Virus record (IMG/VR): IMGVR_UViG_3300027513_000020
Location: 1-50,830 of that record
Direction: 5' to 3' (one strand)
Length of the DNA stretch: 50,830 nucleotides
DNA from: a virus
Positions 14,635-43,698 of this stretch are shown here, one piece after another. A program made the position numbers and the translations under genes. Every line of letters starts with the position of its first letter. Position 1 is the stretch's first letter. Below the pieces are notes generated by a model. The model saw only the letters and a list, made by a program, of their open reading frames with translations. It did no database searches and had not been told where the DNA came from.

Positions 14635-15462
14635 GTGCCGACCACCCCTCCCCAGTTCCGCCACCTGCTGCCGGAGCCGGGACTCCGCGTCCGGCGCTCA
14701 TCCCCGGCCGCCGCGGACTGGTCCGCGCTGGCGCTCTCGCCGGCCGGCTGGTATCGGGCGGACACCGGGCTCTATCAGGAGCGGACGGGCGCCGCGGCCA
14801 CGACGCCCGCGCTGCTCCTCTCGGATCCGGTCGGCACCTGGCAGGACCGGACGCCGCATGGGCGCCACCTCGTTGCCGCCACGGACGCCTCCCGCGCCTC
14901 GCTGCACCTCGGCCTCCAGAATGACCTGCCGGGCGTGCGGCTCGACGGGGCGGACGACCGGCTGATCAACGCCGCGCTGGGGGCGCTCTTCGCCGGCACC
15001 GACGTGCCGCACACCCTGGTTTACGTCTCCCGCTCCAACACGCCCGCGGCGACGTTCCAGGCCGAGACGCTCCTCTATCACAGCGGGGCCGGCCTCGCGT
15101 TCGAGGCGATCTACAACGCCGCGACGGCGACGGGGATGACGTTCTCCCGCCGGGACGACACGGGGCTGAACGAGATCATCCCGACGTTCACGGACGACCG
15201 GAGCACGTTCCGCATCCTGGAGATCGCGTTCACCGGGACGGCGGTCTCCATCCGGCGGAACGGCGCGGCGGTGCTGACGGACGCGACGGTGGACGTGGGC
15301 GCCTTCACGGTGGACCGGTTCGCGGTGGGCGGCGGGCCGGTGTCCGGCTTCTTCCTCGGGGATATCCTCGAGCTGCTGGTGTTCGAGGGAGTGCTCGCGG
15401 CGGAGGACGCCACGCTCCTCCGGGCCTACCTCGGGACGAGGTACCTGATCGAGGTGGCCTGA
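14635..15462 (+). CDS. Concanavalin/LamG-like lectin-fold virion protein
   Basis: 275 residues from a GTG with GGAG nine bases upstream. SPAGWYRADTGLY, GTWQDRTPHGRHL and GVRLDGADDRLIN, followed by beta-rich blocks with VSIRRNGAAVLTDATVDVG and FFLGDILELLVFEGVL, are typical of LamG/concanavalin A-like jelly-roll domains in phage and bacterial surface proteins. A carbohydrate-binding adhesin or capsid fibre is likely. It overlaps the beta-helix gene downstream (TGATG). Confidence 0.65.
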   Translation: MPTTPPQFRHLLPEPGLRVRRSSPAAADWSALALSPAGWYRADTGLYQERTGAAATTPALLLSDPVGTWQDRTPHGRHLVAATDASRASLHLGLQNDLPGVRLDGADDRLINAALGALFAGTDVPHTLVYVSRSNTPAATFQAETLLYHSGAGLAFEAIYNAATATGMTFSRRDDTGLNEIIPTFTDDRSTFRILEIAFTGTAVSIRRNGAAVLTDATVDVGAFTVDRFAVGGGPVSGFFLGDILELLVFEGVLAAEDATLLRAYLGTRYLIEVA

Positions 15463-17081
15463 TGCAACTCGCCGCCGTCGCCAAGAGCCCGCTGGAGATC
15501 CTGGTCTCGTCTTCCCAGGCCGCCCACTTCGCGACCCTTGAGGGCGCGCTGGCGGCGGCGGCGGCCGGGGACACGATCCTGGTGGGGCCCGGCACCTACA
15601 GCCCGCCGGCCACGCTGCTCCTCGACCAGGCCGGCGTGACCCTGAAGAGCACGCACGGGCCGCACGCCACGAAGATCAACGTCCCGCTCGCGAACGTGCC
15701 GGGCGTCCGGATCTCGGCCTCGCGGGTGCGCCTCGGCGGGTTCGAGATCGACGGGCGGGGGGCGGCGCAGCCGGCCGGGACCGGCGCGGACGGGATCGTC
15801 ATCGAAGGCGAGGGCGGCAGCCCGCTCCTGGGGGTGCAGGTCGAGGACTGCTACGTCCACGACGTGGGACGGGCCGGCAACGGGGTGCAGGCCTTCTGGA
15901 CGGACGATCTCGTGATCCGCCGGTGCCGGATCGACAACCACGCGACCTCCCCGACCACCTGGGGCGGCAAGGGCACCCAGAAGGGCGTCTACGTCATCCG
16001 GAGCAACCGGAACCGGATCGAGGACTGCGACCTGTCCGGGTGGAGCCAGGCGGTGGGCTGGTGGACGGGCGTGCGGGACAGCGTGCTCCTGAATTCCCGG
16101 CTGATCGCCAACTACGGGTTTGAGGACGACGCCCAGACCATCTCCCGGAGCGCGTTCGAGGACTACAGCAACGGCGTGGAGGAGCACGGCGGGAACGCGG
16201 TCCTGAACTGCCTGGTGGACGGGAGCGCCCACTGCTGCTTCGAGATCGCGCAGGGGCTGAAGTACGGCGGGCGCTACGTGGGGAACACCCTGCGCAACGC
16301 GGCCACGCTGGTCGGGCGGGCGAGCTCGACGCCGGGCGGCTGCTTCGCGGTGGTGGAGCTGGACGAGCCGGCGCAGCGCACCCAGGAGATCCTCGTCGCC
16401 GGCAACCACTGCTACAGCACGGCCGGGGCCGGGATCCTGGATGTGAACCTCGTGCAGGCGCGGCGGGTGTCCGTCCACGGCAATTTCTTCTACGGCTACC
16501 GGAACCCGGGCCAGGCGGCCCTCGGCGTCTTCGGCGACCACGCCGTCTCCATCCTCGGCAACCAGTTCCGAGACTGTGCGACCGGGATCGACGTGACCGG
16601 CGGCAACGACACCCTGATCGGGAGCGGGAACATGTTCACGGGGACGGGCAACGACGGGGCCGACGCCGCGATCCACATTTCGGCCGGGACGGGCATCCAG
16701 GTGGACGGGGTGCTGATCCGGACCACGAACGGGAAAGGGGTGGTCATCGCGAGCGGCAGCCGGATCAGCGTCCGGAACTCCACCATCATCGTGCCGACCT
16801 GGGCGGTGGTCGCGACGGCCATCGCGGACCTGGACATTCACGGCTGCTACCTGGAAGAGACGGGGGCCGGCGCGTTCGGCTGCTTCAACCTGGACGGCGC
16901 CTGCGTGCGCGCCGACATCCGGGGGAACCGGACGAACAACCCGGCGCGGACCGGGTACTTCTCGGCGACCACCGCGAAGTGCCGGTTCGAACACAACTGG
17001 TGCATCGGGGCGTCCGGCATCAACGTGACGGATCTGGCTGGGGGCGGTTCGACGAATACTGTTAGTAACAATTACACCTAA
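15462..17081 (+). CDS. Right-handed beta-helix (pectate lyase-like) protein
   Basis: 539 residues. The opening AHFATLEGALAAAAAGDTIL, then VGPGTYSPPATL, is the classic start of parallel beta-helix proteins. Many repeat coils follow (LRNAATLVGRAS, VAGNHCYSTAGAGILDVN, ILGNQFRDCATGIDVTGG). It resembles tail spikes or polysaccharide lyases that bind or cut host glycans. Asp and His residues are plentiful but no catalytic set is assigned. Its place between capsid and connector genes is atypical for a tail spike. Confidence 0.75.
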   Translation: MQLAAVAKSPLEILVSSSQAAHFATLEGALAAAAAGDTILVGPGTYSPPATLLLDQAGVTLKSTHGPHATKINVPLANVPGVRISASRVRLGGFEIDGRGAAQPAGTGADGIVIEGEGGSPLLGVQVEDCYVHDVGRAGNGVQAFWTDDLVIRRCRIDNHATSPTTWGGKGTQKGVYVIRSNRNRIEDCDLSGWSQAVGWWTGVRDSVLLNSRLIANYGFEDDAQTISRSAFEDYSNGVEEHGGNAVLNCLVDGSAHCCFEIAQGLKYGGRYVGNTLRNAATLVGRASSTPGGCFAVVELDEPAQRTQEILVAGNHCYSTAGAGILDVNLVQARRVSVHGNFFYGYRNPGQAALGVFGDHAVSILGNQFRDCATGIDVTGGNDTLIGSGNMFTGTGNDGADAAIHISAGTGIQVDGVLIRTTNGKGVVIASGSRISVRNSTIIVPTWAVVATAIADLDIHGCYLEETGAGAFGCFNLDGACVRADIRGNRTNNPARTGYFSATTAKCRFEHNWCIGASGINVTDLAGGGSTNTVSNNYT

Positions 17082-20392: not shown

Positions 20393-21823
20393 GTGGCCAC
20401 CGAGCGCGACGACGTAGTCACTACCTTTCGCGTCCTCGGCGAGCGGGAGACCACGGGCGCCTACCGGTCGGCCGGCACCGCCGCGAACTTCTACCAGCAG
20501 CAGATCGACACCGCGCGGCGCGGGCAGGTCGTCTACGGCGCCGTCCTCGCCGCCTCCACGGCGGTCCTCGCCGCCTATGGGAACGCGGTCCTCGCCGCGG
20601 CCGACGACCAGGCCACGTTCCAGCGGACCGCCGGGAACTTCCGGGGCGCCTTCCCCAAAGAGGAAGTCGAGGCGTTCACGGGGTCCCTCCAGACCCTCAC
20701 GGGGATCGACGACGACAAGATCGCCGCGACGGTCGGCGTCCTCGGGACCTTCCAGATCAGCCCCAGCCTCGCCCGGGACCTGACGCTGCCGATCCTGAAC
20801 GCGTCCGAGGCGCTCAAGGCGCTGGGGCTCACCAGTGAATCCGTCGCCGCGCAGGTCGGGAAGGCGGTCCAGACCGGGAACGCGGGCGCGCTGCGGCGGG
20901 CCGGCATCGTGATCGACGCCGACCAGTTCCGCGCGGCGGGGACGGAAGCGGAGCGGGTGCGGCTCATCATCGCGGCGCTCGACGCGCAGGGCGGGCAGGC
21001 GGCCATCCAGTTCCGGGACAGTCTGCCGGGCGCGCTCCAGGCGTTCCGGACGGAGCTGAACAGCGCCAACGAGGGGATCGGCGAGGGCGGGATCGGGCTC
21101 GCGCGGCTGGCGACCGAGGGCGGGGTGAAGGCGCTCCAGGCCTTCAACGCGCTGCCGGGACCGATCAAAGCGGTCGGCGGCCTCCTCGTCGGCACGCTGG
21201 CGGCGGCGATGGCGGTCTACTCGGCCGGGACGCTGGTCGCCCTCAACAATACGATCCGCCTGGGGGAGGCGTACCTGCAGACGGCGGCCAAGGCCGGCAC
21301 GCTGGCCACCGCGACGAACGGCCTGGCGGCCGTGCAGGGACGGGTCGCGGCGACGAGTGCCGGCGGGACCGCCGCCGCGCGCTTCGGCGCGTTCGCCGGC
21401 TCCGGGGCGGGTCGTGCCGCCGGCGTCGCGGGGGTGGCCGGGCTGGCGCTGGGCTTCCTGCCGGACACCGGGAACGCCGGCCTGGACCTCTTGAAGGCGA
21501 CCGGGGCCGGCGCCCTCGGCGGGGCGGCGACCGGGGCCGCGCTCGGGAGCCTCTTCCCCGGCGCCGGGACCGCCATCGGCGCGGTGATCGGCGGGGTAGG
21601 CGGCGCGCTGGCCGGCGGCTTCGGGAAGGAGGAGGAGCTCCGGCAGCGCGGCGGCGGCAGCAGTGAATCCGAGACGGTGGCGCTCCTGCGGGAGCAGCTC
21701 CGGGTGGCGCAGCAGCAGCTCGAGCACCAGCGGCAGATCAGCGACAACTCGCGGCCGCGGCCGGGCACGCTGGCGTTCTCCGAGCTGCCGGGGCGCGAGC
21801 AGTTCGGCAGCATCTTCGATTAG
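20393..21823 (+). CDS. Short tape measure protein
   Basis: 476 residues from a GTG four bases after the upstream stop. The Ala/Gly-rich helical character, hydrophobic segments near 265-285 and 395-420 (GAGALGGAATGAALGSLFPG) and a C-terminal coiled coil (VALLREQLRVAQQQLEHQRQ) fit tape measures. Its position after tail tube and chaperone-like genes agrees. It sets tail length and is ejected with DNA. The length implies a fairly short tail. Confidence 0.75.
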   Translation: MATERDDVVTTFRVLGERETTGAYRSAGTAANFYQQQIDTARRGQVVYGAVLAASTAVLAAYGNAVLAAADDQATFQRTAGNFRGAFPKEEVEAFTGSLQTLTGIDDDKIAATVGVLGTFQISPSLARDLTLPILNASEALKALGLTSESVAAQVGKAVQTGNAGALRRAGIVIDADQFRAAGTEAERVRLIIAALDAQGGQAAIQFRDSLPGALQAFRTELNSANEGIGEGGIGLARLATEGGVKALQAFNALPGPIKAVGGLLVGTLAAAMAVYSAGTLVALNNTIRLGEAYLQTAAKAGTLATATNGLAAVQGRVAATSAGGTAAARFGAFAGSGAGRAAGVAGVAGLALGFLPDTGNAGLDLLKATGAGALGGAATGAALGSLFPGAGTAIGAVIGGVGGALAGGFGKEEELRQRGGGSSESETVALLREQLRVAQQQLEHQRQISDNSRPRPGTLAFSELPGREQFGSIFD

Positions 21824-23273: not shown

Positions 23274-25853
23274 ATGGCAAACCGGGGACGATTGCGGCTA
23301 GACGCGGACGGCTTCAGCCGCACTTCCGAGGAGCGGTATGACGATCAGTTCAGCGGCAAACGGCTCTACGACATCTTCCTGAAGGACCCCCTGAACCCGC
23401 AGGCCGGCTTCCGCCCCGGAACCGGGTTCTGGAACCCCGGCGGCAAGGAGTACCTGCTCCCCTTGCCGCGGCAGTTCAACCCCACCTGGTTCAAAGACCC
23501 CCGGCTCGTCGATCACGTCCTGAAGGCCGCGCTGTGGACGTTCACGAGCGGCCTCACCGTCCAGACCTTCTCCCCTTCCCACGCGCACCCGTTCGGACCC
23601 AGCTACCCCGCCAACGAGTGGATGGTCATCCACACCGGGACCGCAACCGGCCCCAGTCTCGACAGCCGGAACTACACGGCGATCGGGCAGGCGTGCGGGA
23701 ACATCATCTTCCCGGCCGGCATGAAGACGCTCGCCGTCTGCGGCCAGACGCCGCCCTCGGTCGGGACGCCCCTCGGCTCCGTGGGGTACGAGAACCTCCT
23801 CCCCTACTTCCAGACCCAGGTCTTCCCGGCGCCGGACAACACCGTCGTCTTCGGGTGGAGCAACTTCTGCGTGGTCCTGTTCGGGACCGGCGGCTACCTG
23901 CTCCGGAACCCGAACGGCGACAAGGCGACCTGGGAGCGGCTGGCCTGGTGGAACTCCATCGTGGGGCCGCACGATCCCAGCAAGCCGCAGACGCAGCAGT
24001 CGGGGTTCGCCTCCGGGGACTTCATCCCGGCTTTCCGGGGCTTCCTCGTCTCGGATCTGGGCGAACGGGACTACTGGGTCTCCTTCTCCCACGGCGGCGG
24101 GACGCGGGTGCCGTGGCGCAGTGCGGTCGGGCCGACCTCGGCCGCGACGGGACCCTGGTGGATCGCGGGGCCGACCGCGACCTCCCTGATCGTGCAGGTG
24201 CAGATCGCGGGCTACGAGGGCACGCACACGGCGGGGAACCGGCCGATCCTCTTCGACTTCCCGCAGGGGCAGGCGCCGACGCAGCCGCCGGTCTACGAGC
24301 TGCGGGGCCTGCTCCACGCGAACCCCGGTGACATCACCGTCTCCCACGGGGCGGGCGGCTATACCTACACCTCGCCGGCCGGCGCGAAGATCACTTACAT
24401 GCTCCAGGACGCCGTGACGCTCATGGAGTGGGTGAGTGACGGCATCGCGCACCGGGGCACCCTCTACCTCTCCCTCTTCCCGGCGAACTTCGGCCTGACG
24501 AACGCCGGCTACCTCGCGCCGCAGGTGAAGCTGTTCGAGTTCTCCTTTCCCGCGCACATCGTGCCGCGCACAAACAGCGAGTTCATCCTCCTCGACACCG
24601 AGTTCGACCGGTGGGGAACGGAGGCGTCCTACTACGACTGCGGGCAGGGCCAGATCCGCGTCTTCTTCCGGGTGCTCGACGACATCGGCGGGGCGGGTGG
24701 GCTGGCCCTGGAGTCCGGCGGCTACCACGAGCGGTTCGGGTTCCCCATCGTCTACGAGGAGACGGCGGAGGTCGGCCCGCCGGACTGGGTGCCGCGCTGG
24801 CGGGCGTGGGCCGAGACCTTCGAGCTGGACGAGCTGGCCTCCGAGGACGACGCGAGCGGCCTCCGCCACTACCTGCTGAAAGCGAAACCAATGCTGCACC
24901 GGGCGCAGCAGAAGTGGACGTACCCGCCCCGGATCTTCAACCCGGCCGCGGTGCCGCCCGGGACCGTGGAGCACACCTTTGCCATCGCGGCCACCCTGCG
25001 CAGCAGCCATTTCGACACGACGGACCCGGACCAGGTCTCGATCACGGCGGACCCGGCGAGCGGCACGGAGCGGGCGCGGCTGCCGGGAACGTGGGGGACG
25101 GAGTACGCGCAAGCCGCGCCGGCGGCGGACCCGGACGACGATGCCTGGGGGCCGACCTGGAGCGAGCAGCGGCTCGCCTACATGCAGCGGATCGCCACGG
25201 ACTGGGCCGGCTGGGTGCTCTACACGGACCTCCTGGGGGAGGTCTACTACCATCCCGATCTGCCCCAGGGACTCGCCGCGGGGGAGTGGCTTTACTACGC
25301 CGGCATCACGCTCTACCGGCGGATCCAGGACGCCGCGGCGGCGGGCGTCAACCGGATGCAGGTCTACGCCGAGACCGGGTATCTGCTCATCCGCCCGAAA
25401 GGCAATGTCGTCACCGTTTACGGCAAGGACGACGAAGGCAAGGTGGTCCGCGCGATCGCCCGCGACAACGCCGCGATCACGGACCTCACGAACCCGAACT
25501 TCAGCGGTGAGGAGAACGCGATCACGACGGTGGCCCGGCTCGCGGTCGGCGACAGCGCGCTCACGCAGCTTGCCTTCATCAAGCTGCGGCGGGATGGGCG
25601 GAAGCGGGTGATCCGCCGGTTCAAGGTGGACCTCGCGCCGTGGGAGCTGGAGGGGGGCGTGAGCCAGTTCGACGTGGGGCACGTCTTCACGGCGGCGGGA
25701 CGCGGGACGTTCGTCTGCATCCATCTCTCCGTCGAGGGGAAGCACCGCGGTCTCTACGAAACGATCATCACGGGGGAGCGGATCCCCGTCGGCTCCGTGG
25801 AAGGCGCGCTGCCGGGACCGTTCCCCGGCAGCGGGGATGAGGAGATCCCCTAG
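23274..25853 (+). CDS. Large tail protein (distal tail / tip candidate)
   Basis: 859 residues. It is the first gene after the tape measure once the accessory pair is discounted, where distal tail or tail-tip proteins are encoded. Aromatic and Gly/Pro-rich beta segments dominate (SGKRLYDIFLKDPLNPQAGF, FVCIHLSVEGKHRGLYETII). No clear domain name can be assigned. The ATG at 23274 has no Shine-Dalgarno, so it is leaderless, or a later start is used. Confidence 0.55.
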   Translation: MANRGRLRLDADGFSRTSEERYDDQFSGKRLYDIFLKDPLNPQAGFRPGTGFWNPGGKEYLLPLPRQFNPTWFKDPRLVDHVLKAALWTFTSGLTVQTFSPSHAHPFGPSYPANEWMVIHTGTATGPSLDSRNYTAIGQACGNIIFPAGMKTLAVCGQTPPSVGTPLGSVGYENLLPYFQTQVFPAPDNTVVFGWSNFCVVLFGTGGYLLRNPNGDKATWERLAWWNSIVGPHDPSKPQTQQSGFASGDFIPAFRGFLVSDLGERDYWVSFSHGGGTRVPWRSAVGPTSAATGPWWIAGPTATSLIVQVQIAGYEGTHTAGNRPILFDFPQGQAPTQPPVYELRGLLHANPGDITVSHGAGGYTYTSPAGAKITYMLQDAVTLMEWVSDGIAHRGTLYLSLFPANFGLTNAGYLAPQVKLFEFSFPAHIVPRTNSEFILLDTEFDRWGTEASYYDCGQGQIRVFFRVLDDIGGAGGLALESGGYHERFGFPIVYEETAEVGPPDWVPRWRAWAETFELDELASEDDASGLRHYLLKAKPMLHRAQQKWTYPPRIFNPAAVPPGTVEHTFAIAATLRSSHFDTTDPDQVSITADPASGTERARLPGTWGTEYAQAAPAADPDDDAWGPTWSEQRLAYMQRIATDWAGWVLYTDLLGEVYYHPDLPQGLAAGEWLYYAGITLYRRIQDAAAAGVNRMQVYAETGYLLIRPKGNVVTVYGKDDEGKVVRAIARDNAAITDLTNPNFSGEENAITTVARLAVGDSALTQLAFIKLRRDGRKRVIRRFKVDLAPWELEGGVSQFDVGHVFTAAGRGTFVCIHLSVEGKHRGLYETIITGERIPVGSVEGALPGPFPGSGDEEIP

Positions 25854-26060
25854 ATGCCCTACCGGCAGGAGCAGCACCGCGCGCAGCTCCGGGAGTACGC
25901 CGCCGGCGCCCGGGACCAGGGCGACCTCCAGGAAGTCGCCTTCCCGGCCCAGAGCCCGCTGGACCCCCTGGGGATCAACCCGCGGAAGGCGGAGCGCACC
26001 GTCGTCGTCACCGAGGTGGCGTGGATCGGGTTCGGCTCGCTGCACAACATGACGACTTGA
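25854..26060 (+). CDS. Small tail-region protein
   Basis: 68 residues beginning directly after the upstream stop. MPYRQEQHRAQLREYAAGAR is polar and helical; the end (TVVVTEVAWIGFGSLHNMTT) is beta-like. Likely a small tail or assembly protein; no family is recognised. It is followed by the strong ribosome binding site of the next gene. Confidence 0.55.
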   Translation: MPYRQEQHRAQLREYAAGARDQGDLQEVAFPAQSPLDPLGINPRKAERTVVVTEVAWIGFGSLHNMTT

Positions 26061-26068
26061 GGGGAAAG

Positions 26069-26581
26069 ATGCAGGAAGCACCCGCACCGCGGCCCGGGCT
26101 CCGGCCGGGAACGCCGCCGGTCCCGCAGCCGGGGTCCCGGACCGCACCGCCGACCCCGCGAAAGCAACTCGCGGACCTCCTCGCGGATCGGGAGGCGGTC
26201 ACGCAGGCCGGGCAGGCGGCGGCGGCGCTCCAGCCGGGCGAGGTCGGGATCCGCTTCGTCGCGCGCCTCTTGCCGGGCCTGGTGCCGGCCGCCGCTTCCG
26301 TCCCGGAGTTCGTGCAGCGGCTCCGGGCTGCGGGCTGGCCGGTGCTCTTGCCGGGCCTGGACCCGGTGCAGGTCGGAGACCTCTTCGTCCTCGCGGGGGA
26401 GGACCGGGTCCCCTTTGCGATCGGGTTCGTCGGGCCGCTGGTGGTCGGCGGGAAGGAGTTCACCACGGTAGAGGCCGGCGGGGAGCGGCAGCGTCTTCCC
26501 TTCACGGCGGCCACGTTCTTCCTCCGCCTGCCCTGTCCTCAATGTGACCAGGCCGCAGGCGGCCCCCCGCGGCGCGGGTGA
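26069..26581 (+). CDS. Tail protein resembling a degenerate NlpC/P60-like domain
   Basis: 170 residues from an ATG preceded by GAGGGGAAAG. After a Pro-rich start, the order EVGIRFVARLLP, SVPEFVQRLRAAGWPVL and VQVGDLFVLAGEDRVPFAIG mimics the helix, segment and 'GD-hVGi' layout of NlpC/P60 or CHAP peptidases. The positions where catalytic Cys and His would be hold non-catalytic residues (IRF; FAIG). If the fold is right, it has a structural role in tail assembly. It could also be unrelated. Confidence 0.4.
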   Translation: MQEAPAPRPGLRPGTPPVPQPGSRTAPPTPRKQLADLLADREAVTQAGQAAAALQPGEVGIRFVARLLPGLVPAAASVPEFVQRLRAAGWPVLLPGLDPVQVGDLFVLAGEDRVPFAIGFVGPLVVGGKEFTTVEAGGERQRLPFTAATFFLRLPCPQCDQAAGGPPRRG

Positions 26582-26615: not shown

Positions 26616-28541
26616 GTGGCGCGCGAATGGACGACCACCGACGGGTATGGAGACTGCGAAGGCTTCACCCCCATCACGCTCTCGGGGGCTCCGTCCGGGT
26701 ATCAGCGGAAGGCCTCGCTCGGTCCACTGCATGTCACGATCTTTAGCTGCTTCGGGGAGCCGCCGGAGTGCTGCGACGCCCCGCCGCCGGGACCGGACTG
26801 GGCGAAGCGGGACTGCGGCATCCCCTCCGCGCACTGCGAGTGGTATCAGGGCGCCGACCCGATCACCGGCATCACGCCGGCCGCATACGCGCACACGTCC
26901 ACCGGCTGGCTGCCGTCCTGGGTCTGGGCGAAAGCCGGGCACTACGATGAGGCGACCAGCGGGTTCCCGCCCCTCGACCGGGACTGGTACTTCACCGATC
27001 CCGTCCAGTGCTACCTCTGCGATACCGCGGGGGCGGCGACCGGCGGCATCGGCACCTGTCACGCGATCTGCCCGGTGTGTCCGTTCCACATCTCGAACCC
27101 GTGGACGTTCGATCCGGCGAGCGGGAAGTGCTACCGCGGGACCGGGGACGTCTTCCCCTGTCCGGAAGGCACCGTCTACGACAGCGAGTGCAACGTCTGC
27201 CGCTCGCTCGACCCGCCGCAATCCTGCTGGACCTGGGTGGATTGCGCCTGGCAGCGGCCGGACACGGACTGCCCCGGGGAGAGCTTCTGGGACTGGGAGA
27301 CCTGCCAGTGTGAGTGCCCGGAAGGGCAGTGCTACTACGCGGTCACCGGCGAGTGCGTGGACCGGGAAGACGGCGTTGACTGCACCGGCTTCTTCGCGGG
27401 GATGGATTGCTGGTGGGACCCGAACCAGTGCCTCTGCGAGTGCTGCGACCCCGGCTCCTGCTACTGCATCCTCACCGGGACCTGCATCCCCTGCGACGAG
27501 GATTCAGACGGCTACCCGCAGTGCTTTGCGGAGCGGGAGTGCGCGTGGAACGCGGCCACCTGCGTCTTCGACTGCACGACGCCGGAGTGCCCGGAAGGGG
27601 AAGAGTACGATCTCGATACCTGTTCCTGCGTCGGGACCGATACGGCGATTGCGGGGGAGGGCGTCGATTATGCGATCTGCCCGGCCACCGGCTTCCACTA
27701 CCGGGCGTACCGGCGCAGCTCCGGCGCCGAGGTCCGGGTGGCCCGGAGCCGGGACGGGGGCCGGACCTGGGACGCTCCGGTAACGCTCGCCAGCGACGCG
27801 GACGCGACCGCCGGCCTCGGCGCGTGGCCGGCGCTGGAGGTGGACCGGTGGGGGACGGTCTACTGCTGGTATCACACGACCGCCCCGGCCGCGCAGGGCT
27901 ACTACTCCGCGGACGGGGGCGCGACCTTTGCCCTCTACGCCACCCACACGGGGCTGCGGTATCCTCGCCCGCGGTTCCGCCTCGAGCGGCTGGTGGTGAC
28001 GGCGCATGTTGCGAACGCGCTGAATCTCTATGAGTCCGACGACGGGGGAGCCACCCTCGCCCTCGCGCTCACGTTCGGGACGGGGGTCCCGAAGCAGCGG
28101 ACCGTGATGCAGGTGGACCGCCGGGATTACGTCCACCTCCTGTGGGACGAGGGCGACGGGGACATCAGCCACCGGGGGAGCCGGACGCCCGGGGTGCTCG
28201 CCTCGTGGGTGCAGGACTTCATCACGTTTCTCGGGCGGATCCCCGGCTACGCGATCGCGGTGCCGGCGGCGGTGACGGTCTGGTTTGCCGAGGCGAGCGC
28301 GGTCCTCTCCGCGGAACGATCCCTCGCGGACTACGCGACGAATGACGAGCCTTGCGGGGTGCCGGGAGTGGACCCGTCCATGACGTTCAAGATCTGCTCG
28401 CCGGGGATGGCGGCCGACCGCTACGGGATCTACTACTACCTGAACCGGGAAAGTGTGGGCAACGACCTTTTCACCTGGGGGAGCCAGACCGGCGGCGAGA
28501 CCTGGTCGCTGCTGGAGGACATCGGCGGAGGCATCTCTTGA
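26616..28541 (+). CDS. Cysteine-rich tail protein with BNR (sialidase-like) repeats
   Basis: 641 residues from a GTG. The first roughly 345 residues contain about 40 cysteines in EGF-like spacing (CPVCPFHIS, CQCECPEGQCYY, CLCECCDPGSCYC), which is exceptional for a virion protein. Residues from about 360 carry Asp-box motifs: SRDGGRTW exactly, then SADGGATF, SDDGGATL and SQTGGETW. These indicate a beta-propeller of the sialidase/BNR class. A receptor-binding or glycan-binding tail fibre is likely. Disulfides or bound metal would explain the Cys-rich arm. Confidence 0.7.
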   Translation: MAREWTTTDGYGDCEGFTPITLSGAPSGYQRKASLGPLHVTIFSCFGEPPECCDAPPPGPDWAKRDCGIPSAHCEWYQGADPITGITPAAYAHTSTGWLPSWVWAKAGHYDEATSGFPPLDRDWYFTDPVQCYLCDTAGAATGGIGTCHAICPVCPFHISNPWTFDPASGKCYRGTGDVFPCPEGTVYDSECNVCRSLDPPQSCWTWVDCAWQRPDTDCPGESFWDWETCQCECPEGQCYYAVTGECVDREDGVDCTGFFAGMDCWWDPNQCLCECCDPGSCYCILTGTCIPCDEDSDGYPQCFAERECAWNAATCVFDCTTPECPEGEEYDLDTCSCVGTDTAIAGEGVDYAICPATGFHYRAYRRSSGAEVRVARSRDGGRTWDAPVTLASDADATAGLGAWPALEVDRWGTVYCWYHTTAPAAQGYYSADGGATFALYATHTGLRYPRPRFRLERLVVTAHVANALNLYESDDGGATLALALTFGTGVPKQRTVMQVDRRDYVHLLWDEGDGDISHRGSRTPGVLASWVQDFITFLGRIPGYAIAVPAAVTVWFAEASAVLSAERSLADYATNDEPCGVPGVDPSMTFKICSPGMAADRYGIYYYLNRESVGNDLFTWGSQTGGETWSLLEDIGGGIS

Positions 28542-29287
28542 GCTATCTACCGCGACAGGGAGCCAGCTACAGCAAGCCCTACAGCCTCGACCGGGACAAC
28601 CAGCGGGGGGACGAGCTCGACGCCGGCCTGAACGCGCGCCTGCCCCCCGGGATCCTCTCCGGCGGCGGCATCACCGTCTCGGCCGCCCTGGAGATCGAGC
28701 TCGCGGCCGAGACGGTCGTCTGGACGGCGGGGCTGCGGTTCAACACCGGCGTCGATCCGCTGCCGCTCACGGTCGCGGGGGCGCCATCCGGGGAGGTCTA
28801 CGTATGGGGGCTGCTCACGCGGACGGCGGCCAACCAGAACGAGCGGACGGAGCTGGACACGTACGCGTTCGTCCTCAGCTATCTGCCCGACGATCCGACG
28901 CCGCCGAGCGAGTACCACGTCCCGCTCGCGGTGCTCCCCCTCGACGGCTCCGGGAACATCGACGCCGCGAACGTCAACGCGAATCCCCTCGGCAAGTGGG
29001 CGAACCCGCCGAACCGCGGCTTCCGGTCGATCGACCTGGCCGGCTCGGGCGACTACACGCTCTCCGCGGCGGAAGCGCGGGCGGGGGTGCTGAAGCTGAC
29101 GGGGGCGCTGACCGGCGCCCGGAGCCTGATCCTGCCGTTCCGGGCGGGTGACGTCAGGTTGATCCACAACGCGACCACGGGCGCGTTCGCGATCACGGCG
29201 AAGATCGCGGGCGGCACCGGAGAGGCGGTCCCGCAGGGCGCCGTGAGCAGCGTCTACTGCGACGACACCGACATCGTGGTCGTGTAG
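28538..29287 (+). CDS. C-terminal tail fibre/baseplate protein
   Basis: 249 residues from a TTG that overlaps the upstream TGA, with GGAGG six bases before it. Beta-rich with LLTRTAANQNERTELDTYAF and FRAGDVRLIHNATTGAFAIT, then AVPQGAVSSVYCDDTDIVVV. The last part is the common phage fibre-tip pattern ending in 'v.cdgtd'. It is the last gene of the late operon. Likely exposed at the tail tip. Confidence 0.65.
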   Translation: MSYLPRQGASYSKPYSLDRDNQRGDELDAGLNARLPPGILSGGGITVSAALEIELAAETVVWTAGLRFNTGVDPLPLTVAGAPSGEVYVWGLLTRTAANQNERTELDTYAFVLSYLPDDPTPPSEYHVPLAVLPLDGSGNIDAANVNANPLGKWANPPNRGFRSIDLAGSGDYTLSAAEARAGVLKLTGALTGARSLILPFRAGDVRLIHNATTGAFAITAKIAGGTGEAVPQGAVSSVYCDDTDIVVV

Positions 29288-30774: not shown

Positions 30775-31227
30775 TCAGAAGGAATCGGCCTGGCCCATGC
30801 CATTGAGCAGCGCGAGGATGTGCTTGCAGCGCATGCCCGGGACGTTTCGGCACCGGTAGTGGTAATCCGGACAGCTACAGTTGTGGTGCGTCGTTTCATG
30901 AACCTCGCCGGACTTCGGATTGAAGCAGTAGAAGAACGGGCGCCCGCTGTCGGTGTTCAGGCAGAATGCGTAGCCGTCTCCCTCGGACAGGGCGGTTCGG
31001 AGCCGCTGGTCCTGCGCCCCTCTTACCAGCTCCGCGTACCGCTGGTCGCTCGCCGGCTGCGAGGCCACGAAGAAGCGGACGGTGTCGCTCCTGGTGCGGT
31101 TGCTCTCGCCGACGTGGACCTCGGTGAAGCGGGGGTTGGCGGCGAGGCACGCCGCGAAGCGATCGGCAGCGGGGCGGTCCATGAGCCTGGTCCGGTAACC
31201 GGCTCCGGCGGATGATATGGTTTGCAT
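30775..31227 (-). CDS. SWIM zinc-finger protein
   Basis: 150 residues from the ATG at 31227. The C-terminus has HNCSCPDYHYRCRNVPGMRC followed by KHILALLNGM, the CxC...CxH arrangement of SWIM zinc fingers, which bind DNA or proteins. The N-terminal half (ESNRTRSDTVRFFVASQPAS) is unassigned. It is the first gene of the short leftward unit with its own promoter at 31302. The role may be DNA binding in replication or host takeover. Confidence 0.75.
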   Translation of the reverse strand: MQTISSAGAGYRTRLMDRPAADRFAACLAANPRFTEVHVGESNRTRSDTVRFFVASQPASDQRYAELVRGAQDQRLRTALSEGDGYAFCLNTDSGRPFFYCFNPKSGEVHETTHHNCSCPDYHYRCRNVPGMRCKHILALLNGMGQADSF

Positions 31228-31605: not shown

Positions 31606-32161
31606 AGGCCGCTGCCGGGATTGCCGCCACTGGGACCGCGGGCACGCCGACTTCAACCCCTTCCCGGAGCCGGGACAGCCGGACTACCGGGAACACGGCC
31701 GCTGTGCCCTCGCGGCGACGGAGGGCCGGCAGGTGCATCCCGAGAGCCTGGCGGCCGCCTACGGGCAGGAGGGGAACGCCTGGCTGCTCACGGCGCCCTC
31801 GTTCGGGTGCTGTCAGTGGGCGCCGAAGCTCGTCCTACCGACGCGGACGAGCGATCCCATCCGCGTCGGGGCCGCCTGCCATGTGGACGCCGCGGACCGG
31901 CCGTACGTCGAGGCGAACCTCCCGCGCCTGGACCGACGTCTCCGCGAAGAACTGCTCGGGGACCTCTGGCTGGTGCTGGAGGACTTTACGCTGGAAGTGA
32001 ACCCGGCGCTGGCGGTGACCGTGGAGACGGGGGCCGGCGCCGTCGTGCTGAACGGGCACGCGGCGCCGCCCCTGCCGCCGGGTTTCCGGCCGTCGCTGCT
32101 CTCGGCCTTACTGCGGGCGGTGCGGGAACTCCTCGCTGAACCCCGATCGGTGCAGCCATGA
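31598..32161 (+). CDS. Zinc-motif protein of the cassette
   Basis: 187 residues from a GTG that overlaps the upstream gene; GGAGGCGAGG lies just before it. N-terminal [21 protein letters not shown] and FGCCQWAP form a four-Cys zinc site seen in small phage proteins. The C-terminal 110 residues ([20 protein letters not shown]) are helical and unassigned. The end overlaps the methyltransferase ATG by four bases, so expression is coupled. Function unknown. Confidence 0.6.
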
Positions 32162-35100
32162 CCCTCGCCGCTTCCCTACCGTCCCTCGCGGACTTCATCC
32201 ACCGCTGGGCCGCCTCCGGCGCCGCGGAGCGCGCCAACTACCAGCTCTTCCTCTCGGAACTGTGCGACGTGCTCGGCGTCCCCCGCCCGGAGCCGACCCG
32301 ACCCGAGGACGAACACAACGCCTACGTGTTCGAGCGGGCCGTTACCTTCCAGAACGGCGACGGCACCACCAGCACCGGCCGGATCGACCTCTACCGCCGC
32401 GCCTGCTTCATCCTGGAGGCGAAGCAGGGCAGCGAGCGGGCCGAGCCCGCTGCGTTGGGCATCAAGGCGAAACCCCGTCGGAAGGGAACCGCGACCCGCG
32501 GCACGCAGGGCTGGGACGACGCCATGCTCGCGGCCCGCGGCCAAGCGGAGCTGTACGCCCGGGCCCTCCCGGCGGAGGAGGGCTGGCCGCCGTTCCTCCT
32601 GGTGGTGGACGTGGGCTACTCGATCGAGCTGTACGCCGACTTCACCCGCTCCGGGAAGACCTACATCCCGTTTCCCGACCCCCGCAGCCACCGCCTCCTG
32701 CTCCGGGACCTGGAGCAGGAGGAGCTGCGGGAGCGGCTCCGGGCGATCTGGCTGGACCCGCTCTCCGTCGATCCGAGCCGGCGCAGCGCCCGCGTCACGC
32801 GGGAAGTAGCGAACCAGCTCGCCGTCCTGGCGAAGTCGCTGGAGGAGAGCGGCCACGCGCCGGAAGCGGCGGCCCAGTTCCTGATGCGCTGCATCTTCAC
32901 GATGTTCGCCGAGGACGTGAAGCTGATCCCCGAGGGCGGCTTCACGGACCTGCTCCACCACATCAGCGACGAAGACGTCGAGCTGTTCCCCGGCCTGGTG
33001 CAGTCCCTCTGGGAGACGATGGCGACCGGCGGCCTGTCGCCCGTGCTCCGGAGAAAGCTGCTCCGGTTCAACGGTGGCCTGTTCGAGGACTGCCAGGCGC
33101 TCCCCCTGACCCGCCAGCAGTTGCTGCTGCTCTCGCAAGCGACCCACGCGGACTGGCGCGACGTGGAGCCGGCGATCTTCGGGACCCTATTGGAGCGGGC
33201 CCTCGATCCCCACGAGCGGCACAAGCTGGGCGCCCACTACACCCCGCGGGCCTACGTGGAGCGGCTGGTGCTGCCGACGCTGGTGGAGCCACTGCGGGAG
33301 GATTGGGAGGCGGTCCGCGTGGCCGCGGTCACGCTGGCGAAGGAAGGGGATCTGCAGAAGGCGGCCGAGCAGGTGAGCGCCTTCCATCGCCGGCTCTGTG
33401 AGGTCCGGGTACTCGATCCGGCCTGCGGCAGCGGCAACTTCCTCTATGTCGCCCTGGAGCACCTCAAGCGCCTGGAAGGCGAGGTGCTGAACACGCTCGA
33501 CAGTTTCGGACAGCGGCGCCTGGACCTGGAAGCCCGCACGCTGACGGTGGATCCGCACCAGCTCCTCGGCCTGGAGATCAACCCGCGGGCTGCCGCGATT
33601 ACGGATCTGGTTCTCTGGATCGGTTACCTGCAGTGGCACTTCCGGACGCGGGGCGAGGCGATGCCGGAAGAGCCGGTCATCAAGCGGTTCCACAACATCG
33701 AGTGTCGGGATGCGGTGTTGGCCTACGACAGCATAGAGGAGGTCCGGGACTCAAATGGCACGTTGGTCACGATCTGGGATCGGAGGACGTTCAAGCAGCA
33801 TCCGGTGACGGGCGAGGCGGTGCCCGACGAGACTGCCCGAGCGCCCTTGCTGCGCTACGTGAACCCTCGCCAGCCTGACTGGCCTGAAGCGGACTTCATC
33901 GTGGGGAATCCGCCGTTTATCGGTAACGCGCGCATGCGTGCCGCTCTCGGCCATGGCTATTCCGAGACGCTCCGCAAGGTCTACCCAGAGGTGCCGGAGA
34001 GCAGCGACTACGTCATGTACTGGTGGGACCGTGCCGCCCTCCTAGTGCGGGCTAGGCAAGCCCGTCGGTTCGGCTTCATCACCACCAACAGCCTTCCTCA
34101 ACCTTTCAACCGGCGAGTAGTCCAACCCCATCTGTCGGCCACAGACCCACTATCACTCGTCATGGCGATCCCGGATCATCCCTGGGTGGACTCAGGCGAT
34201 GGCGCGGCCGTGAGGATCGCCATGACCGTTGCAGAAAGCGGCAATAGCATCGGGCTCCTGCAACGAGTGAGTGCCGAAGCCGCGGGCGATGGGGACGGTC
34301 GCGAGGTTCGGCTGAGCTCTCAATCGGGGAAGATCCTCTCCGACCTTTCTGCCGGTGCCGATATTGCTGGTGCACTGCCGCTCAGGGCCAATGCCGGCAT
34401 GAGCAACCGCGGCGTCGCTCTGCATGGCGCCGGCTTCATAGTGACGCCCGAGGAAGCGGCGTGTCTTGGCCTTGGCCGAATCCCCGGGCTGGAGAACCAC
34501 ATCCGTCTCTACCGCAACGGACGCGACCTGACGGCGCGGCCTCGGAACGCCCTCGTCATTGATCTCTTTGGCCTGAGTGCTGAAGAGGTCCGCGAGTGCT
34601 ATCCCGAGGTCTTCCAATGGGTGCACGACCGCGTGAAGCCTGAGCGGGATCACAACCCGCGGCCGTCCCGGCGTGAGAAGTGGTGGGTATTTGGCGAGCC
34701 AATCAGTACCTTCCGGCCCGCCTTGGCAGGTCCGCGGCGGTACATATCAACGGTAGAAACATCGAAGCACCGGTTCTTCGTCTTCCTCGACGCGGCCATC
34801 CTGCCGGACAACAAGCTCGTGAACATTGCCCTGGATGACGCCTGCTTCCTGGGTATCCTCTCCAGCAAGGTACACGTGACGTGGGCGTTGGCCGCCGGGA
34901 GCCTCCTGGAGGACCGGCCGGTTTACGTCAAGACAACCTGCTTCGAAAGGTTCCCGTTCCCCGACTGCGGTGAGGACGAGAGGGCGCGTATACGCGAGTT
35001 GGGCGAAGCACTGGACGCCCACCGTAAGCGCCAGCAGGCACTCCACCCGAAGCTGACGATGACGGACATGTACAACGTCCTGGAGAAGCTGCGGGCTGGC

Positions 35101-35598
35101 CAGCCGCTGTCGGAGAAGGAGAAGGTGACCCACGAGCAGGGCCTGGTCTCCGTCCTGAAGCAGATCCACGACGACCTCGACCGCGCCGTCTTCGACGCCT
35201 ACGGCTGGCCGACCACGCTGACGGATGAGGAGATCCTGGAGCGGCTCGTGGCGCTGAACGCGGAGCGGGGGCGGGAGGAGAAGGCGGGTCTGGTGCGCTG
35301 GCTGCGTCCTGAGTTCCAGAACCCCCAGGGGACGGGACAGACGGCGCTGGACACGGGCGAGGGCGAGACCGTCACCGCCGTGGCGCCCGTCAAGGACAGA
35401 CTGCCTTGGCCGAAGGAGCTGGCCGAACAGGCGAAGGCCGTCCGCGCGGCTCTGGTGGCACAGGCCGCGGTCACTACCGCGGAACAACTGGCCCGGACCT
35501 TCAAGGGGGCGCGCGTGGATCGGGTGGGCGCTCTGCTGGAAACGCTGGCGTCTCTGGGACAGGCGCGCGAGGTGGAGGAAGGGCGGTACGCGGCCTAA
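32158..35598 (+). CDS. DrmMI/MmeI-like adenine methyltransferase with nuclease motif
   Basis: 1146 residues. The N-terminal region has [16 protein letters not shown], a PD-(D/E)xK pattern with D77 and E87-x-K89. The methyltransferase core carries [11 protein letters not shown] (SAM binding, 420-430) and NPPF (584-587), which together indicate N6-adenine methylation. [20 protein letters not shown] is characteristic of the large class I enzymes of DISARM (DrmMI) and the type IIL MmeI family. Specificity would lie in the central to C-terminal part, where DNA is visibly less GC-rich (about 33.7-34.9 kb). No DISARM helicase genes are nearby. It may restrict rival DNA, protect the phage, or do both. 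Confidence 0.85.
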
Positions 35599-37058: not shown

Positions 37059-37645
37059 CGGACTCCCTCCTGAATCGCCGCCTGCAGGCGGTCGATCACG
37101 GCGCGAGCGCGAGGCACGGTGAGGCCGTTCAGCTCCAGGTTCGCGAGGGAGGCCTCCCATTCCCAGAGTCCGAGGGCGCCCTTCGCCGAGACGGGAAACT
37201 CGAAGCGGTGGACGTCCTCCAGGAACCAGCCGTAGCGGCCCGGGCTGAAGTCACCAAAGGCGCGCTCCGGTGTCCCTTCCGCGGGCAGCCAGTCCGGCAG
37301 GAACTCCGCCCAGCCCGCCGTCGGCCCCGTCGGCCGGCAGTCCGCCAGGCGGACCACCGCGACGACCGCGCCGCGCGGCAGGAGGGCGCCCCAGCCGGAG
37401 TCGCCCGCGGCGATCGCGCGCTGCCGGGCCGGGCTGTTCCGCTGCGAGAGGCAGTAGCCGGCGTCGGAGAGCGCCTTCGCGAAGTAGCCCGTGAAGCACA
37501 GCTCCTGCGCCGCGCGCGGGAACCCCTGCGCGGCGTGGATGGCGAGCAGCCCGCGGTACCGGGTGGACCAGGAGCGCGTCTCTATTCTTTTCTGCCCGTG
37601 GGCCACGAGGGAGGCCCAGGGTTGCGTGAGAGTCAGGGCACGGAT
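37055..37645 (-). CDS. ASCH-domain protein starting at an ATC codon
   Basis: 196 residues. The frame reads I/M-R-A-L-T-L-T-Q-P-W-A-S-L, then KRIETRSWSTRYRGLLAIHA. This is the canonical ASCH N-terminus, normally beginning M-[KR]-A-L-T-L. Here its first codon is ATC at 37645. GGAGG lies exactly six bases upstream and no ATG, GTG or TTG is in frame before the motif. A GTG at 37606 would delete the conserved start. ASCH proteins bind RNA or modified nucleotides. Overlaps the methyltransferase stop by 13 bases. Confidence 0.8.
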   Translation of the reverse strand: MRALTLTQPWASLVAHGQKRIETRSWSTRYRGLLAIHAAQGFPRAAQELCFTGYFAKALSDAGYCLSQRNSPARQRAIAAGDSGWGALLPRGAVVAVVRLADCRPTGPTAGWAEFLPDWLPAEGTPERAFGDFSPGRYGWFLEDVHRFEFPVSAKGALGLWEWEASLANLELNGLTVPRARAVIDRLQAAIQEGVR

Positions 37646-38559
37646 GTCACACCTCCATTCATGATCCCGTCCGCCTCTTCGAAGAGGGAGGGCTGTGCGC
37701 TGCTAAGGGCGGCCGCGGCCGCCGGGTTCGACCACAGACACTCGGTGCGCGGGCGGGCGGCGTCGGCGTGGGTCCGGGTGGCCACCCGTCGCCAGCCCGC
37801 ATAGAGCGCGTCGTACAGCCGCGACGGGTACCCGCTGATCACGACCATGCCCCGGCAGCCGCGCAAGAGGAGCGCGAGCTCCTGGTGCTCCTCGTCCGTC
37901 ATCTCGACGGCGTAGCGGGGCCGAGGGTCCGCGCCGCGCGAGCTGAACGGGTACGGCGGATCCACATAGAAGAGCGTGTCCGGGGCGTCGTGCTGCGGGA
38001 TCAGGCGCCGCGCGTCGATCTGATCGACGAACACGCCCCGCAGCCGCTCCGTGAAGGCCGGAATCACGTCCGGGTACGTGCTCCACTCGCGGGCGGGATG
38101 CGGACCGTGGGTGCCGGGCCGCACGTACTTCCGCCAGCCGTCCCGGTTCCGGGACCCGTCCTGGTTCCGCGTCGTGCAGCAGGCGGAGCTCTTGCCCATG
38201 AAGGCCAGGATTACCAGCCGCCGCGCCCGTTCGACGGGATCCGCCGTCGGCGCGAATGCCGCCTGGAACTCTGCCCGGGCGTAGGGCGTGATCCTCAGGA
38301 GCTGCTCCAGCTTTTGGGCCGTGTCGGGATCCTGCAGCACGCGGAAGAAGTTCACCACGTCGCCGTCGAGGTCGTTGTAGACCTCCCCGAAAGAGCGCGG
38401 CTTGCACATCAGGACCGAGGCGCCGCCCCCATAGGGCTCGACAAAGATCTGATGCGGAGGCAAGTGCGACACAATCCAGCTCGCCAGGCGAAATTTTCCG
38501 CCGTGGAATCTCAGCGCGGGGCGCGCGGGCCGGCTGAGGGCGTGCGGAGGCACGATCAC
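37633..38559 (-). CDS. dam: D12-class DNA adenine N6-methyltransferase
   Basis: 308 residues. FHGGK (18-22, SAM binding), EPYGGGASV (41-49), NDLDGDVVNFFRVLQ (62-76) and catalytic DPPY (200-203) define a Dam/D12 enzyme. It would methylate adenine in phage DNA, often protecting against host restriction or tuning packaging. No partner nuclease is adjacent. Expressed in the early operon; the ATG overlaps the upstream stop. Confidence 0.9.
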   Translation of the reverse strand: MIVPPHALSRPARPALRFHGGKFRLASWIVSHLPPHQIFVEPYGGGASVLMCKPRSFGEVYNDLDGDVVNFFRVLQDPDTAQKLEQLLRITPYARAEFQAAFAPTADPVERARRLVILAFMGKSSACCTTRNQDGSRNRDGWRKYVRPGTHGPHPAREWSTYPDVIPAFTERLRGVFVDQIDARRLIPQHDAPDTLFYVDPPYPFSSRGADPRPRYAVEMTDEEHQELALLLRGCRGMVVISGYPSRLYDALYAGWRRVATRTHADAARPRTECLWSNPAAAAALSSAQPSLFEEADGIMNGGVTSVP

Positions 38560-39593
38560 GCGGGCACCTCCTCGGCCTCTTCGGTCTCGCCCGTCTCCTC
38601 CAGGGCGAACGTCAGTTGCCGCGGCAGCCGGAGCCCCCAGGTGTACCAGGCGCAGGAGAAATAGCCCCCGCCGACCCTTCCCGAGGGGGTCGTGAACTCC
38701 GGCCGGCGGGGCAGGACGAGCAGCTCGACCCCGTGCCGCTCGTAGAGCTGCTGGCGCTCGCGGCCCTCGAGCGCCGTGAGCGGCAAGAGGAGCCCAAACG
38801 GCCGCCCCAGGTCGTAGGCCCGCGCGAGGAAGGCGTCCTTGAGCGAGAAAGGCGGGTTGGTGACGATGAGGTCCCAGGCCTCGGCGGGCGCCCAGCGCAG
38901 GAAGTCCTGGCCCCCGGCGAGGTCACTGCCGATGACCGGATGCCCGGCCTCCCGCAGCACCTCCGCGAGCTGCCCCCGTCCCCACGCGCATTCCCAGATG
39001 GTCGCACCGGCCGGCAGGTAGGGGAGCAGCGGCAGGACGGATGCCCGATCCGTCTGGAAGTGGTCGCTGTGGCCGTAGCCCATCAGGGGCGGGCGGTTGG
39101 ACTGGCCCATCTTGAGCTGCTGGAGACGCTCTGCCTCCTCGAACCGGGCGGCGGCTATGCGCTGCTCGTCCCACCAGGCCCCTTCGCGTTCATCGGCCAC
39201 GTGGCGCACATCAGCCGCCGTCACCCGGCCGTTCCCGCTGCGTTCTTGAGCCTGTTGCCACACCTCGGCCCGCTCACTTGCCGGAACGGACGCCAGTTCC
39301 CGGAGGTGGCTCTCCGGGATGCGCCCGATTTCCCCATTTGGGGAAAGTTCTCTCTCCGTCAACCCCGCCTGAAGCTGACGATAGAGATGAGTCTGGCTCT
39401 GCGCAAACTCCGTGACGACGCATTCGCGCCAGGACGAGTAGCCGAGCACCTCCCAGCCCCGCCGCTCGTAAAGCTCCAGCAGCAGCGCGCGTGCGCCGCC
39501 CATATGGACCTTGATCTTCTCGACGCAGAAACGAGCCTCTTGCGCCAGCATCGGGATCTGAGCCGCGGTCGGCGGCGCCTGGGGGGAGATCAC
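38556..39593 (-). CDS. SAM-dependent methyltransferase with N-terminal DNA-binding-like domain
   Basis: 345 residues from a GTG overlapping the upstream TGA. The N-terminal half (KVHMGGARALLLELYERRGW, GYSSWRECVVTEFAQSQTHL) is helical and resembles replication-initiator or ParB-like HTH regions. The C-terminal half has a SAM-binding region near TIWECAWGRGQLAEVL and TNPPFSLKDAF, the amino-methyltransferase catalytic motif. Probably modifies adenine in DNA. With the D12 enzyme and the cassette enzyme, the phage has three methyltransferases. Confidence 0.75.
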   Translation of the reverse strand: MISPQAPPTAAQIPMLAQEARFCVEKIKVHMGGARALLLELYERRGWEVLGYSSWRECVVTEFAQSQTHLYRQLQAGLTERELSPNGEIGRIPESHLRELASVPASERAEVWQQAQERSGNGRVTAADVRHVADEREGAWWDEQRIAAARFEEAERLQQLKMGQSNRPPLMGYGHSDHFQTDRASVLPLLPYLPAGATIWECAWGRGQLAEVLREAGHPVIGSDLAGGQDFLRWAPAEAWDLIVTNPPFSLKDAFLARAYDLGRPFGLLLPLTALEGRERQQLYERHGVELLVLPRRPEFTTPSGRVGGGYFSCAWYTWGLRLPRQLTFALEETGETEEAEEVPA

Positions 39594-39973
39594 GACAATT
39601 CCGCTATCAATGAATCGACCTCTTCCGTGTGGCGGAACCACTCCCCGTGAATGTGGAGGTGGGTGAGCCGCCGATGACATTCACGTTCCCGCGTCCCCGC
39701 GCCGGGGATAACCGCAAGCAGGACGAGCTTCCCGGGGGCGCCGCACTGGAGTTCGTCCAGACGCACCTCCGGGTCTCGGGAAACGCCGATCTTGACGGCA
39801 TCACCGCATTTTGCGAAGTAAAGCGCCTTGCGACTATGCAGCCGACCCAGCATCTTGTCGGTATTCAAAGCCCGCGCGTAGGCTGCATGAGCGGTTGCCA
39901 GACGAACATCGGCAAGCGCCTCGGCAAACTCTTCTTTCGTCGCAACCCTCTTCTTCGGCTCGTTTCCACTCAC
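39590..39973 (-). CDS. T5orf172/GIY-YIG-like nuclease-fold protein
   Basis: 127 residues from the GTG at 39973, with AAAGGTGG upstream. YFAKCGDAVKIGVSRDPEVR, then LDELQCGAPGKLVLL and GTRERECHRRL, match the T5orf172/MUG113 branch of the GIY-YIG fold. HGEWFRHTEEVDSLI is the usual ending. Starts at 40063 or 40066 are possible but add sequence that does not look coding. Codon use is less GC-rich than in neighbours, hinting at transfer. Probably cuts or nicks DNA. Confidence 0.7.
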   Translation of the reverse strand: MSGNEPKKRVATKEEFAEALADVRLATAHAAYARALNTDKMLGRLHSRKALYFAKCGDAVKIGVSRDPEVRLDELQCGAPGKLVLLAVIPGAGTRERECHRRLTHLHIHGEWFRHTEEVDSLIAELS

Positions 39974-40919: not shown

Positions 40920-41425
40920 GCCCCCACCTCCTCCCCGATAGGCCGTGTCGCTTCCCGAAGGGCCTCCCCGGCGGCGCGGAGCGCCGGGTCGAGAGCGCCC
41001 TTTGCCTGCCAGTAGACGGCAAAGGATCGCTCGCGCGCCTTCCTGCGGTTCTCCTTGAGCTGGCGCCGCCACCACGCCCGGCAAGCCTGTTGATGCCGGG
41101 CCTTTTGCCGAGGCTGCCGGCGCCGCTGCGCTTCACACGCGCGACAGTGAGCCTGAAGGCCCGTGGCCGCTCCGCGGTCCCGGTTGAAGTCCGCTGCGGG
41201 CTTTCGCTCGCCGCAGTCCGGACAGCGCTCGGTCCGGACCGTGGGCGCCGGCACGTCGTACTTCCAGTCGCGCGGCGGTCGCGTCCGGGTCAGGCGCCGG
41301 TTCCGCTCCTGGCTGCAACCCTCGGAGCACGTGATGCGGGGACGCCCGCCTTTCCGGCCCGGCGCCGGCACCGGCGCCCCGCAGATGATGCAGGCTGTCG
41401 TCTTTCCCCGGAGATCGCGGTTCAT
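40916..41425 (-). CDS. Zinc-binding protein related to HNH families
   Basis: 169 residues. ACIICGAPVPAPGRKGGRPR followed by CSEGC, then RCPDCGERKPAADFNRDRGA, GLQAHCRACEAQRR: paired zinc knuckles typical of phage HNH nuclease N-termini. The C-terminal part is a long basic helix; a classic HNH triad is not obvious. It may be a nuclease remnant or a zinc regulator. The ATG overlaps the sigma factor stop. Confidence 0.6.
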   Translation of the reverse strand: MNRDLRGKTTACIICGAPVPAPGRKGGRPRITCSEGCSQERNRRLTRTRPPRDWKYDVPAPTVRTERCPDCGERKPAADFNRDRGAATGLQAHCRACEAQRRRQPRQKARHQQACRAWWRRQLKENRRKARERSFAVYWQAKGALDPALRAAGEALREATRPIGEEVGA

Positions 41426-42045
41426 GCTGCCTCCTCGAGGTCCACGAGGGCGCGGCGGAGAGCGACCCGGGCGCGGGCCAGGTCGAGGCAGACGGTGCTC
41501 TCGGCCCGGCCGACGGCGGCGGCGATCGCCCGGTACGACTGGTCCTGCCAGAAGTGCCGCCGGACAATCTCCCGCTGGCGGGGCGGGAGCTCCCCGAGGG
41601 CGGCGGCGATCCGGGCCGCCGTGAGGCGGTGGAGGGCGGGCTCCTCGGTGCGCTCGGGGCCGGCGACCGTGTCGGCGAGGGTCAGGTCCGCCGCCTCCAG
41701 GAGCTCTTCCAGGGAGCAGGTGCGGACGAGCGGGAACTCCTCGCCGCGGCGCTGCGCGGCCCGCTCCCGCGCCCGCACCTTGCGGGGGACCCAGTCTTCC
41801 CGGCGCAGGTACTCGAGCATCGCGCCGCGGATGGTCGCGATGGCGTAAGTCTTGAAGTCGGTCTTCCGGCGGGGATCGAAGCGGTGCGCGGCCTGGCAGA
41901 GGGCGAGGTAGCCGGCGCCGTCCAGGTCCTGCGGGTCGAGCCGGGCGGGGAGGCGGCCCGCGCAGCGCTCCCGGGTCACCGGGACGAGGTAGGCGTAGCG
42001 CAGGGTGAGGGCGCGGGGACCGGGCGCGTGGGGATTCAGCGTCAT
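41422..42045 (-). CDS. Phage-encoded sigma-70 family factor
   Basis: 207 residues with both core-binding region 2 (LDPQDLDGAGYLALCQAAHR, FDPRRKTDFKTYAIATIRGA) and region 4 (LPPRQREIVRRHFWQDQSYR, AIAAAVGRAESTVCLDLARA). The architecture is that of SigB/FliA-like group 3 factors. It could redirect host RNA polymerase to phage middle or late promoters. It lies mid-operon and overlaps neighbours by four bases. Confidence 0.85.
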   Translation of the reverse strand: MTLNPHAPGPRALTLRYAYLVPVTRERCAGRLPARLDPQDLDGAGYLALCQAAHRFDPRRKTDFKTYAIATIRGAMLEYLRREDWVPRKVRARERAAQRRGEEFPLVRTCSLEELLEAADLTLADTVAGPERTEEPALHRLTAARIAAALGELPPRQREIVRRHFWQDQSYRAIAAAVGRAESTVCLDLARARVALRRALVDLEEAA

Positions 42046-43591: not shown

Positions 43592-43698
43592 CTGCGTACC
43601 TCGCGCATGCGTGTACACACTCACTCCGAAGAAGAAGAAGAAAAGGGGTACACATACGCCCGCGCGAGTCCCACCGCGTTGCTTCCTATCGGTTTCGT

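Follow-up and report, generated by a model that had tools for sequence, protein, structure and literature searches.

A putative phage tail adhesin joining a cysteine-rich array to a BNR/Asp-box propeller

A gene of a temperate tailed phage, which is distantly related to sequenced phages, was found to encode a protein with a cysteine-rich array followed by a BNR/Asp-box β-propeller. On balance, this product is probably a glycan-binding adhesin, located at the tail tip or associated with the tail fibre and borne on a Cys-rich stalk. The phage is represented by an IMG/VR record of 50,830 bases and about 70% GC, which was analysed in full length and is referred to here as the window. As judged from the sequence, each half of the protein resembles familiar building blocks, and their combination appears nowhere else in the collections searched. 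The cytoplasm in which tail proteins are synthesised is reducing, and about 40 clustered cysteines in a virion protein would raise the question of whether they are oxidized after release or bind metals. Such Cys-loop arrays are otherwise known from secreted proteins.

Reading frame and cysteine content

The gene (26616..28541, + strand) is a single intact open reading frame of 641 codons according to ORF calling, with a GTG start and a Shine-Dalgarno-like GGAGAGG a few bases upstream. The first-pass annotation had considered that frameshift artefacts might affect this interval, and the question was addressed with a codon model for which eleven further genes of this phage served as the training set and which was scored per 300-bp block. 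In every block fully inside the gene, the coding score was positive in the annotated frame alone (0.26 to 0.48 bits per codon), the best alternative frame scored 0.14 bits per codon or less and was interrupted by stops, and the favoured frame changed at the gene located 3'. The model thus favours one frame throughout the gene and, since this is the sole positive frame, a frameshift or assembly artefact was excluded.

Of the 44 cysteines in the 641-aa protein, 40 fall within residues 1-341, including 34 within residues 131-341. The initial description of about 40 cysteines and a BNR propeller in one gene was confirmed. The densest 300-aa stretch of the protein has 39 cysteines, versus a maximum of 23 and a 99.9th percentile of 22 for the 538 ORFs in the fetched viral loci that reach 300 aa or more, a comparison that is conservative because this reference set includes wrong-frame ORFs.

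The cysteine-rich array and the propeller

The N-terminal part (residues 1-130, 26616..27005, + strand) contains tryptophan and cysteine residues. No family match and no signal-peptide-like or strongly hydrophobic stretch was found in it, and it could possibly be the part of the protein that attaches to the virion. The array that follows (residues 131-341, 27006..27638, + strand) concentrates its 34 cysteines in 211 residues (16% Cys) and is acidic, with 37 D/E versus 6 K/R, a composition that seems typical of extracellular disulfide repeats, unlike that of cytoplasmic zinc ribbons. Four loops of the type aromatic-[DN]-x3-C were found in the array (residues 225, 267, 311 and 331; p 0.0008) together with three CPxG motifs (p 0.001), present as CPEG at residues 182, 234 and 325; both values come from composition-preserving shuffles and are optimistic, since the motifs were picked after seeing the sequence. 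The CXCXC motif is located at residues 230 and 272, and the sequence DEDSDG at residue 294 resembles the calcium-binding motif of thrombospondin-3. By its sequence, this half of the protein is an acidic short-loop array in the style of secreted proteins.

The W/Y-D/N-x3-C-x-C-x-C loops of the array are similar to those of the CXCXC repeat (PF03128), known from the tail of VEGF-C. The 13-residue Pfam model gave 16.1 bits (E 0.015) in the protein scan, with a cut-off of 15, and 14.9 bits in the search of the whole record, just under the 15-bit cut-off, so membership of this family would be borderline. Balbiani-ring proteins also carry this repeat. Unlike in the animal CXCXC proteins, the units of the array are irregular and encoded by a phage. 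The proposal that the cysteines were EGF-like was rejected, because neither the PROSITE patterns EGF_1 and EGF_2 nor the Pfam EGF models matched the protein.

The nearest look-alike found for the array is a secreted, lipoprotein-like sequence from Myxococcota with CGAGAAFDTRTNRCRC-type loops, which shares with the array the loop pattern C-x2-G-x2-[FYW]-D-x-x-T-x-x-C-x-C and, unlike the phage protein, has no propeller. The similarity, with 24% identical residues in a stretch of 125 and an E of 1.1e-4 per genome for 379 genomes searched, is marginal.

The C-terminal half of the protein (residues 348-641, 27657..28538, + strand) is, on the evidence of its sequence, a real BNR/Asp-box domain. Four Asp-box-like motifs had been reported, and this count was borne out by three canonical-type S-x-[DT]-G-G-x-T boxes (residues 378, 431 and 474) and a degenerate one at residue 623 (SQTGGET) that lacks the Asp, whereas at least two Asp boxes appeared in 0 of 2000 shuffles. 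The Pfam BNR model matched the protein with 22.4 bits (E 8.7e-5), below the curated cut-off of 27. Whole-genome searches revealed a match of residues 330-493 in a Planctomycetota genome (3.4e-9 per genome, 27% identity) and a match of residues 359-443 in an Acidobacteriota genome (1.2e-7 per genome), where the identity is 50% across 85 residues. A profile built on 37 blades, all from bacterial proteins that were found with the phage protein as query among about 390 unrelated genomes and have Asp boxes of their own, detected three blades in the phage protein at 7.3e-9, compared with 0.013 for the best among 2000 shuffles.

The Asp boxes and the repeats of 44-55 residues are shared with BNR/Asp-box proteins (PF02012, PF13088), and the identity with bacterial members ranges from 27 to 50% over 85-164 residues. 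Unlike in the bacterial BNR proteins, the phage propeller follows a Cys-rich array in the same polypeptide, and its gene belongs to a tail module. By eye, the domain can be divided into six repeats of the size expected for a six-bladed propeller; no good Asp boxes are present in the later repeats, and for this reason the number of six blades is given here as a prediction. Single-sequence AlphaFold2 models, computed in two runs without relatives, had mean pLDDT values of 33.8 and 35.1, too low to support either a fold or disorder.

Searches for a relative of the Cys-rich protein covered phages, plasmids, IMG/VR and about 1,100 genomes from Planctomycetota, Myxococcota and Acidobacteriota, and no protein carrying both halves turned up. 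Proteins with both the Cys-rich region and BNR repeats were absent from the results of a tblastn search against 50,697 phages and 72,556 plasmids, of exact-peptide scans of IMG/VR and GTDB genome contigs and of an Asp-box alignment scan of IMG/VR. A scan of IMG/VR with a CXCXC DNA pattern, which was checked on the window, produced chance matches only. The searched collections, which possibly do not cover records very close to the window, contained no homologue of the Cys-rich array.

Gene neighbourhood in the phage genome

The phage genome encodes an integrase (1173-2264), a large terminase (7239-8864), a portal protein matching phrog_30703 (E 2e-36), an S49 head protease matching phrog_53 (E 1e-71), a major capsid protein matching phrog_29, and RecT and DnaC. 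No relatives of the portal were found in about 460 genomes of three phyla. A gene for a tape-measure-like protein (20393..21823, + strand; phrog_167, E 6e-6) is followed on its 3' side by a gene coding for an 859-aa protein (23274..25853, + strand), for which no relatives were found and which is likely, by its position, a tail hub or baseplate component. The gene of the Cys-rich protein lies 3' of both, on the same strand, and is preceded by a gene for a 186-aa protein (26021..26581, + strand) with a gap of 34 bp.

On its 3' side there is a tail-fibre gene (28538..29287, + strand, 249 aa) with a TTG start at 28538 and GGAGG just upstream. The C-terminal domain of its product is common to phage tail fibres (phrog_12796, E 4e-13), and the product shows 47% identity with the tail fibre of Bordetella phage PHB04. 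The TGA stop of the Cys-rich gene (28539-28541) shares bases with this TTG start in a TTGA stop-start overlap, and mainly because of this coupling the product of the gene was considered a tail protein. Its location in the virion is accordingly suggested by gene position.

A putative tail adhesin and competing explanations

The proposal that the gene encodes a receptor-binding fibre stood in part: the fusion of a Cys-rich region to a BNR propeller in the neighbourhood of a tail-fibre gene was found, and the receptor-binding role is the best guess. In the adhesin model, residues 1-130 would attach the protein to the tail and the acidic Cys array would form a compact, rigid and knotted spacer or stalk between this virion-attached N-terminus and the C-terminal propeller, which would contact a glycan of the host surface; both the spacer role of the array and the glycan binding are functional predictions. 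The disulfides of the array would probably form once lysis has released the protein from the reducing cytoplasm, in the manner of the short Cys-loop repeats of secreted proteins, and this would reconcile the array with synthesis in a reducing compartment. A propeller on a tail appendage has a precedent, since the tail fibre of RcGTA terminates in a β-propeller foot that has been likened to a lectin domain (PMC7296036). Like this fibre, the phage protein would form a tail appendage with a propeller at its C-terminal end, and unlike phage and GTA fibres with a propeller or lectin foot it contains a Cys-rich array instead of a recognised rod.

The cysteines could alternatively constitute a metal-binding module, with zinc ribbons or iron-sulfur centres formed in the cytoplasm that would aid the assembly of the tail tip. 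Metal binding would sidestep the problem of the reducing cytoplasm, and four-Cys iron-sulfur clusters are well documented in tail tips, the hubs of RcGTA and R4C being examples (PMC7296036, PMC10276861). Two CxxC-x(n)-CxxC arrangements are also present (residues 132-155 and 274-293). The phage protein shares with the lambda gpL, RcGTA and R4C hubs the presence of cysteines in a tail-tip protein, but those clusters need four cysteines each for one cluster, whereas here 40 are clustered and no homology with the hubs was found. Moreover, the 34 cysteines in the 211 residues of the array are accompanied by just 2 His and 1 Lys, the loop motifs are like those of secreted Cys-repeat proteins and unlike ribbons, and neither CxC nor CxxC exceeded the expectation from composition (5 CxxC observed, 5.3 expected). 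The metal-binding module is thus considered unlikely, and the number and loop style of the cysteines appear to fit disulfides better than clusters. The first-pass annotation also contemplated a host with an oxidising cytoplasm. In such a thermophile-like host, disulfides would be present in many proteins. The extreme cysteine count of this one gene is all that points to such a host, and across 49 other genes predicted in the phage the median is 1.26% Cys, with 2 cysteines in the major capsid protein, 4 in the portal, 4 in the terminase and none in the tape measure, which makes this explanation highly improbable.

Two other explanations are both regarded as quite improbable. A virion-borne glycan hydrolase of the sialidase type (depolymerase) would agree with the BNR repeats and with a weak similarity to exo-α-sialidases (best PDB match E 0.011). 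BNR propellers are frequently non-enzymatic, and this one, unlike the BNR/sialidase members, lies below the curated Pfam cut-offs (BNR_2 14.7 bits, cut-off 31.4) and lacks the [FY]RIP motif of GH33 before the first Asp box, the sole RIP being located far downstream at residue 541; the missing motif makes an enzyme unlikely. The gene could also be a lysogenic-conversion gene (moron) whose product is displayed or secreted by the lysogen and is not part of the virion, as the phage encodes an integrase and the similar Cys-loop array of the Myxococcota protein is accompanied by a lipoprotein-like signal. Against this, the phage protein showed neither an N-terminal signal nor a strongly hydrophobic stretch, no promoter-like site was detected near the gene in a scan limited to the sigma-70 consensus, and the gene is joined to the tail-fibre gene by the stop-start overlap.

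A less probable extension of the adhesin model is a class of virion adhesins with a long disulfide-knotted Cys-loop array that is made reduced in the cytoplasm and locked only after lysis, so that the appendage would stiffen or become active outside the cell. If true, such locking by disulfides would give phage adhesins a new maturation step and offer a source of binding modules of very high stability.

Other genes of the record were observed in the course of this analysis. Two right-handed β-helix proteins (Beta_helix/NosD-like) are encoded at 15462-17081 (+ strand, 14 Cys) and 5526-6722 (+ strand, 11 Cys), between the head and tail genes and 5' of the terminase, respectively, which are unusual places for tail-spike-like folds. 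A small protein at 30775-31227 (− strand) matched the SWIM zinc finger barely over the Pfam cut-off, and in a protein at 42992-43624 (− strand) the thumb domain of DNA polymerase β alone was recognised (PF14791, E 3.8e-8), without the catalytic domains. The phage also encodes a factor of the sigma-70 family that has regions 2 and 4 (41422-42216, − strand) and a second, small protein with sigma region 4 (3138-3530, + strand), and may thereby redirect host transcription. In addition to further methyltransferases at 37633-39680, there is a full-length MmeI-like restriction-modification protein (32158-35598, + strand) with 64% identity to one encoded in a Pyrinomonadaceae MAG, and the relatives of this gene, at 64% identity or less, are spread over many phyla.
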